Origin: Phycisphaeraceae bacterium
GTDB lineage: Bacteria > Planctomycetota > Phycisphaerae > Phycisphaerales > Zrk34
Length of the DNA stretch: 64,000 nt
Assembly: GCA_028282805.1 (NCBI GenBank)
Contig: JANQHD010000022.1
Span: 1 to 64,000 of the forward strand
Direction of reading: 5' to 3'
The translations under genes and the position numbers were made by a program. Below the pieces are notes generated by a model, which saw only the letters and a list, made by a program, of their open reading frames with translations, ran no database searches and was not told the DNA's origin. Positions 7,572 to 41,255 of this stretch are shown piece by piece; the stretch's first letter is position 1, and every line of letters starts with the position of its first letter.

Positions 7572-7625
7572 AGCCGGCACCATACCTGGTGCCGGTCCGA
7601 CCGGCGGCAGGTATGCCGCCGGCTA
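7572..7625. repeat. REP-like double hairpin, copy 1
   Basis: Two adjacent inverted repeats: AGCCGGCACCA-TACC-TGGTGCCGGT, then ACCGGCGGCA-GGTA-TGCCGCCGGCT. It sits between bioA and the DUF1080 gene. A full copy occurs at 41157-41213 and a single-hairpin copy at 24024-24049. Confidence 0.85.
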
Positions 7626-15852: not shown

Positions 15853-15873
15853 AAGCCGCTCGCGGCTTAGCGC
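15853..15873. repeat. CCGCTCGCGGCTTAGCGC repeat, copy 2
   Basis: AAGCCGCTCGCGGCTT palindrome followed by AGCGC, 27 bases after the stop of the broken hydrolase gene. Confidence 0.8.
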
Positions 15874-16002: not shown

Positions 16003-16027
16003 TATAATTTTTAGTCTAAAAACTATA
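16003..16027. repeat. AT-rich palindrome family, copy A
   Basis: Arms TATAATTTTTAG and CTAAAAACTATA flank a central T. One arm mismatch. It belongs to a five-copy family with consensus arm AT(A/C)GTTTWTAG around a single W. Confidence 0.8.
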
Positions 16028-16068
16028 AATACCGAACCGCACATCACGCACAGCACACCCACATCGCC

Positions 16069-16173
16069 ATCTCGCAATACACAACATGCGTCGCGCACAA
16101 CGCGTTTCGCAACACGCATCGCGCAATACACATCGTGCAACACGCGTCGCGCAACACACGTCGCGCAACGCAT
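16069..16173. repeat. Long degenerate heptamer array
   Basis: Fifteen consecutive 7-base units in one phase, roughly alternating AACACGC-like and GTCGCGC-like units (examples: AACATGC, GTCGCGC, AACACGC, ATCGCGC, AATACAC, ATCGTGC). The composite 14-base unit is clearest from 16111 to 16166. Confidence 0.75.
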
Positions 16174-16211
16174 ACCTCAAGCCGCACGCCGCGGTGTGTT
16201 GCCAAAATATG

Positions 16212-16234
16212 ATAGTTTTTAGTCTAAAAACTAT
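16212..16234. repeat. AT-rich palindrome family, copy B
   Basis: Perfect arms ATAGTTTTTAG and CTAAAAACTAT around a central T. Confidence 0.85.
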
Positions 16235-16302
16235 ATAGATTAGGGCCTTCCAACACGCCGAGGTGGCGGTGGCGGTCGCGCGTTGTTGTGGTCGTGCGCC
16301 CC

Positions 16303-16323
16303 AAGCCGCTCGCGGCTTAGCGC
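16303..16323. repeat. CCGCTCGCGGCTTAGCGC repeat, copy 3
   Basis: AAGCCGCTCGCGGCTT plus AGCGC, 17 bases downstream of the esterase stop codon on the opposite strand. Confidence 0.8.
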
Positions 16324-23952: not shown

Positions 23953-23975
23953 ATAGTTTATAGACTATAAACGAT
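23953..23975. repeat. AT-rich palindrome family, copy C
   Basis: Arms ATAGTTTATAG and CTATAAACGAT around a central A. One mismatch, at the outer A/G position, gives the copy a direction. Confidence 0.82.
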
Positions 23976-24023
23976 AAGATGGCCCGGGCGTGCGGGTCGG
24001 GTATTTGTTGTGCAAGACGCGCT

Positions 24024-24049
24024 AGCCGGCACCATACCTGGTGCCGGCT
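24024..24049. repeat. REP-like element, single hairpin copy
   Basis: AGCCGGCACCA-TACC-TGGTGCCGGCT. Only the first of the two hairpins seen at 7572-7625 is present. Confidence 0.82.
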
Positions 24050-24064: not shown

Positions 24065-24087
24065 ATAGTTTTTAGACTAAAAACGAT
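24065..24087. repeat. AT-rich palindrome family, copy D
   Basis: Arms ATAGTTTTTAG and CTAAAAACGAT around a central A. Same orientation as copy C. Confidence 0.82.
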
Positions 24088-41156: not shown

Positions 41157-41213
41157 TAGCCGGCACCATACTTGGTGCCGGTCCCAGACCGGCGGCAGGT
41201 ATGCCGCCGGCTA
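41157..41213. repeat. REP-like double hairpin, copy 3
   Basis: AGCCGGCACCA-TACT-TGGTGCCGGT, then ACCGGCGGCA-GGTA-TGCCGCCGGCT. It differs from copy 1 only in a few spacer and loop positions. Confidence 0.85.
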
Positions 41214-41232: not shown

Positions 41233-41255
41233 ATCGTTTATAGTCTATAAACTAT
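41233..41255. repeat. AT-rich palindrome family, copy E
   Basis: Arms ATCGTTTATAG and CTATAAACTAT around a central T. It has the mismatch seen in copies C and D, but on the left, so it is in the reverse orientation. Confidence 0.82.

Follow-up and report, generated by a model that had tools for sequence, protein, structure and literature searches.

An AT-rich intergenic palindrome in a Phycisphaeraceae genome: a possible duplex protein site carried in part by REP-like units

Palindromes in the window

The window analyzed here, a 64,000-nucleotide stretch of contig JANQHD010000022.1 from a Phycisphaeraceae bacterium, contains five copies of an AT-rich palindrome (Table 1). The original prediction described five copies of a single form, all of them intergenic in GC-rich DNA. 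All five were located, and their placement was borne out against the predicted genes, with two corrections: the first copy starts at 16004 and not 16003, and this copy (ATAATTTTTAG) deviates from the form on one arm. In 100 shuffles of the window the mean and the maximum number of palindromes were both 0, versus the five real copies. Copy 2 has convergent genes on its sides and lies 208 bp from copy 1, copy 3 begins 15 bp after the stop codon of a DUF481 gene, and copy 5 is located after a gene of the glucosamine-6-phosphate isomerase/6-phosphogluconolactonase family.

Table 1. Palindromes and associated repeats located in the window.
Feature	Position	Strand	Description
AT palindrome copy 1	16004..16026	.	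T type (TTTTTAG/CTAAAAA); one mismatch to motif, pair broken at -8
AT palindrome copy 2	16212..16234	.	T type, perfect 11-1-11 palindrome
AT palindrome copy 3	23953..23975	.	A type (TTTATAG/CTATAAA), unpaired at ±9
AT palindrome copy 4	24065..24087	.	T type, unpaired at ±9; 112 bp from copy 3
AT palindrome copy 5	41233..41255	.	A type, unpaired at ±9
Linker, palindrome to GC-rich REP	23976..24023	+	Shares homology with linkers of several further units in the genome
GC-rich REP hairpin (CCGGCRSCATACYTGSYGCCGG family)	24024..24049	.	Between copies 3 and 4
Pair of GC-rich REP hairpins	41160..41210	.	Opposite orientation; adjoins copy 5
GC-rich REP family CCGGCRSCATACYTGSYGCCGG	7574-7622		Further occurrence in the window

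The changes between copies had been described as matched on both arms. This holds for the A/T swap at ±4, which is matched in all five copies, and fails for the A/C position (±9), which is unmatched in three of the five (ATAG...CGAT at 23953 and 24065, ATCG...CTAT at 41233).

Other repeats were observed nearby. A hairpin repeat, AAGCCGCTCGCGGCTTAGCG, flanks copies 1 and 2 at 15853-15872 and 16303-16322, and strings resembling it occur near other palindrome clusters. Between copies 1 and 2, the DNA from 16040 to 16180 is of low complexity and contains repeated CGCGCAACACGC-like units. At loci L021, L027, L036, L037, L038 and L039, tandem repeats with short units of some 6-8 bases, such as GGCTTGG, GCCATTC and TGCCGAT, were seen near palindromes.

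Copy number and species restriction

A genome-wide search with the degenerate 23-mer confirmed a family, with 52 sites at ≤3 mismatches in the bacterium's own assembly (3.9 Mb, 56 contigs). Of the 50 sites listed by that search, 42 are perfect, seven have one mismatch and one has two. We analyzed 50 of the 52, C7:16747 (two mismatches) having been removed by the core filter and one unlisted copy left out. The complete motif is an AT-rich palindrome of 27 bases, W-N-ATMGTTTWTAG-W-CTAWAAACKAT-N-W, set in DNA whose GC content is about 66% in the stretches fetched. The exact core GTTTNTAGNCTANAAAC was found at 45 sites and its reversed control at none. A looser core, WWWTAGWCTAWWW, gave 53 matches (the first of them listed by position) versus 0 for the reversed control; the 0-8 matches in relatives did not usually exceed those of the respective controls. 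When the centre was left free and only the arms were searched, there were 45 matches versus 0 for the control, and 0-2 in relatives. These counts leave almost no room for half-degraded copies: a copy is either nearly intact or gone. All 92 of the half-sites CTAWAAACKAT found in the fetched DNA belong to palindromes.

None of 60 relatives, one of them a congener with 85% completeness, contains the exact core, nor does any of 391 further genomes in the phylum (in partial overlap with the 60), and the viral contigs searched gave no palindrome match. A search of genome contigs returned one match, in MAG L043. This was rejected as a family member and taken as chance, because the site has AT-rich surroundings and near-matches in that MAG are few (7 versus 2 for the control). 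Rfam placed no family at the palindromes, matching only two tRNAs, and no fitting description of such a palindrome family was found in the literature searched. The earlier remark that no known family came to mind holds for this particular sequence, although elements of the same general kind, intergenic palindromes dispersed through a genome (REPs), are known.

Genomic setting

The 50 copies fall into 32 clusters (20 single, six double and six triple), in which neighbours are spaced 112-340 bp apart, apart from one pair at 609 bp. No helical phasing of these spacings was found. On some contigs the copies seemed unevenly spread, an impression on which no claim is based. Genes were predicted with a purpose-written script rather than a published gene finder; on these predictions, which give a coding fraction of 82%, none of the 50 copies lies inside a gene. 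The intergenic regions that carry palindromes are long, with a median near 440 bp versus 133 bp for all such regions.

A location bias relative to genes, which the original prediction had proposed to look for, was seen in part. Among regions of ≥90 bp, 13 of the 27 convergent ones carry sites, compared with 4 of the 31 divergent and 14 of the 78 tandem ones (convergent versus divergent, p 0.004). The excess fades in regions of ≥250 bp (9/17 convergent versus 4/15 divergent, p 0.17; 11/17 versus 2/14, p 0.009, with a stricter gene-score cut-off), so that a preference for long intergenes may explain part of it.

A coherent regulon was considered and rejected: the flanking proteins, among them sulfatases, RecG, NUDIX, peroxiredoxin, a DNA polymerase III subunit and LysE, are unrelated and share no common function. 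The biggest neighbour family recurring between loci is that of the sulfatases (six members), enzymes that are common in planctomycetes. There is also one group of three and several of two, some of which result from overlap between two fetched stretches.

Symmetry across the dyad

Positions were counted outward from the centre, the 50 copies giving 100 halves. Positions 1-3, 5, 6, 10 and 11 are invariant, position 7 varies in 4/100 halves and position 8 in 1/100. Position 4 is A or T, position 9 is T in 60 halves, G in 36 and another base in four, and position 13 is A or T in every half. Conservation ends near position 14.

The bases at ±4 are complementary in 46 of 50 copies, where about 26 would be expected (TA 27, AT 19, mixed 4; Fisher 9e-10), and with one site taken per cluster the coupling persists (median Fisher p 7e-6). 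One-sided changes at this position thus number four, versus 24 expected. Coupling was found neither at ±9 (30/50 complementary; Fisher 0.12 in a table of A/C by T/G) nor at ±13, where 32/50 are complementary, about what independence gives. Genome-wide, then, matched change holds for one of the two positions for which it had been claimed. The proposal that pairing or symmetry is under selection survives for symmetry at ±4 and is not supported for pairing itself; 20/50 copies are unpaired at ±9 and 18/50 at ±13. Because the alphabets at ±9 and ±13 are strictly kept half by half despite these unpaired copies, readout as duplex DNA fits better than a hairpin. Plain half-site readout leaves over the coupling at ±4, which could stem from DNA shape, from binders of two specificities or from pairing.

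Constraint against diverged linkers

Of the 3072 linker bases aligned across 46 copy pairs whose flanks are homologous, 18.6% differ, versus one difference in 828 comparisons at the 18 fixed palindrome positions. Ten non-overlapping pairs gave 1/180 differences at the fixed positions (binomial 4e-15). At ±4, both arms differ in 18 of the 46 pairs, one arm in 10 and neither in 18; all 10 one-arm differences involve a single mixed copy, L025_5163. The corresponding figures for the ten non-overlapping pairs are three, one and six. In weakly supported flank trees, position -4 changes at least five times and +4 at least four times among 12 copies, and each changes twice among another set of five. 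On such poorly supported trees, the ±4 switch would seem to have occurred several times.

The same comparison bears on a neutral origin, in which the copies would be alike through recent spread or through arm-to-arm or copy-to-copy correction, with template switching at quasi-palindromes producing the symmetry at ±4. Coupled changes would then be expected without selection, and several matched switches among paralogues were indeed seen. We consider this improbable: in the units concerned, the palindrome has not diverged alongside flanks that now differ by 8-27%, and mismatches at ±9 stay uncorrected.

Composite units and REP elements

A second repeat, the GC-rich REP family CCGGCRSCATACYTGSYGCCGG, is present in 61 copies at ≤1 mismatch in the genome and in none of 20 relatives. 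Its members often form opposed pairs, are preceded by TAG or AG, and have alternative complementary stem bases. A GC-rich REP lies within 250 bp of 12 of the 32 palindrome clusters, versus one of 35 palindrome-free intergenic regions of ≥250 bp. These 12 clusters show a BIME-like alternation, and the other 20 are without GC-rich REPs; a scan for GC-rich REPs at the interval locus L075 found none. In the composite units the AT palindrome forms the junction between head-to-tail tandem units. A search for composites returned 75 matches, many of which are a palindrome alone or a REP alone. At the REP pairs examined elsewhere, either an intact palindrome is present or none is recognisable. Both the composite setting and the species restriction speak for a REP-like origin of at least some copies.

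Two REP superfamilies, GTAG and CGTC, are distinguished in PMC3733652, where GTAG REPs are defined by their tag and by a transposase neighbourhood. The AT palindrome resembles the REPs described there in being a short intergenic palindrome, species-specific, present in tens of copies, clustered, and divided into sub-types with complementary stem changes. It resembles BIME/REPIN composites (PMC3116915 and PMC2817692) where it is physically mixed with a GC-rich REP pair. It differs from REPs in being AT-rich within stretches of about 66% GC, in having a one-base centre instead of a loop, in lacking an unpaired tag or any copy at the Y1 transposase loci, and in a half-wise conservation that reaches beyond the pairing region. 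Having neither tag nor transposase neighbourhood, it was not filed under the GTAG REPs.

The main rival to a duplex site is a REP hairpin with no transposase of its own: an AT-rich REP/REPIN-like element that an IS200-like (Y1) transposase, working in trans, would spread in single-stranded form, and in which the symmetry at ±4 would be stem pairing. Size, intergenic position, clusters of two or three, species restriction, the matched stem change and the nearby GC-rich REPs all fit, and the genome has five Y1_Tnp loci, four of them above the cut-off. In PMC3733652, CGTC REPs are likewise described as lacking a dedicated transposase, and species-specificity and alternative complementary stem residues are given there as normal for REPs. 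We nevertheless regard this explanation as unlikely, although a serious contender. No unpaired GTAG or CGTC tag was found beside the palindrome (flanking positions 12-20), and an inverted-repeat scan of the five Y1_Tnp loci listed no AT palindrome, three of these loci bearing palindromes of other sequence. In addition, 20/50 copies are unpaired at ±9, with the halves keeping to T or G there, and the RNA folds predicted for the AT-rich stem are weak (-2.3 to -6.7 kcal/mol across all five window copies).

The three Y1_Tnp loci L045, L046 and L047 each have several copies of a different short palindrome, which suggests separate REP systems in one genome. One Y1_Tnp gene, at L079:2732-3367, is located some 2 kb away from a CCGGCRSCATACYTGSYGCCGG REP pair.

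A recombination site for a tyrosine recombinase, with the 112-284 bp intervals as non-coding cassettes between sites, is very improbable in our view. The arrays do alternate palindromes and intervals, with interval contents that differ within one cluster, and inverted arms flank a short centre; but no recombinase gene occurs among the neighbours scanned, several intervals are clearly tandem duplications, and the centre is nearly symmetric. Least probable of all is a bidirectional transcription terminator or mRNA 3' hairpin, for which the excess in convergent regions and a symmetry that could serve both strands would speak, since the A/U stem with the weak folds noted above is not a stable G+C-rich hairpin, the window copies have no U tract, the distance to the stop codon varies from 26 to 1233 bp in tandem gene pairs, and A or T at ±13 would not be needed.

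A putative protein site

We tentatively interpret the palindrome as a duplex site under constraint, about 27 bp long, for a putative symmetric DNA-binding protein with an architectural role, a reading in which belief falls slightly short of doubt. We infer both that a protein reads the element and that it reads it as duplex DNA. The odd centre and two half-sites, CTAWAAACKATNW, facing outwards, would be read by a putative dimeric protein of the species' own. The restriction to A/T at 0, ±4 and ±13 is as would be expected of minor-groove or shape contacts, and that to T or G at ±9 would match recognition of the keto group that both bases present in the major groove. Part of the multiplication may have taken place inside REP/BIME-like tandem units that carried the copies along, selection keeping the site while the linkers drifted. 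The role is probably architectural, since the neighbouring genes are functionally unrelated and the sites are commonest between convergent genes; the protein might help to organise the nucleoid or form a roadblock that separates transcription units, instead of governing a single regulon.

The sites of matS (bound by MatP), SlmA and Noc are chromosome-organising, shorter palindromes that each occur in tens of copies with no tie to a regulon. The element described here is like them in copy number and in the lack of a regulon, and unlike them in being 27 bp long, clustered and species-restricted, and no organiser protein was found.

Among the genes examined, the sole candidate binder is an ArsR-type gene (L016:5377-5670) encoding a winged-helix protein of 97 amino acids (HTH_20, 7e-14), and the candidacy is weak. 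Three palindromes lie upstream of this gene, the third ending 2 bp before the ATG. The best matches of the protein in 60 relatives have ≤47% identity; ArsR-like genes at this level are common in relatives, and the genome itself has five matches. ArsR/SmtB operators are 12-2-12 inverted repeats (PMC8790569), and the palindrome has half-sites of similar size in a dyad but an odd centre (13-1-13), about 50 copies, and a position mostly away from promoters. Just one of the 32 clusters abuts the start codon of a regulator, as an operator at a regulated promoter would. We treat the gene as a lead only, because the link rests on that one cluster.

A more specific proposal, possible if rather unlikely, is a species-restricted system that organises or insulates the chromosome through some 50 sites, mostly at gene ends, and a putative lineage-specific protein, possibly of ArsR type. 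The symmetric base at ±4 would then divide the sites into two classes, an arrangement that homodimers of two specificities would produce.

Short repeats in bacteria are for the most part read as transposase-mobilised REPs. Here the conservation of a repeat far exceeds that of the REP-like units in which it rides, and its half-site rules resemble readout by a protein. If confirmed, this would mean that mobile intergenic repeats have spread a functional protein site through the genome.
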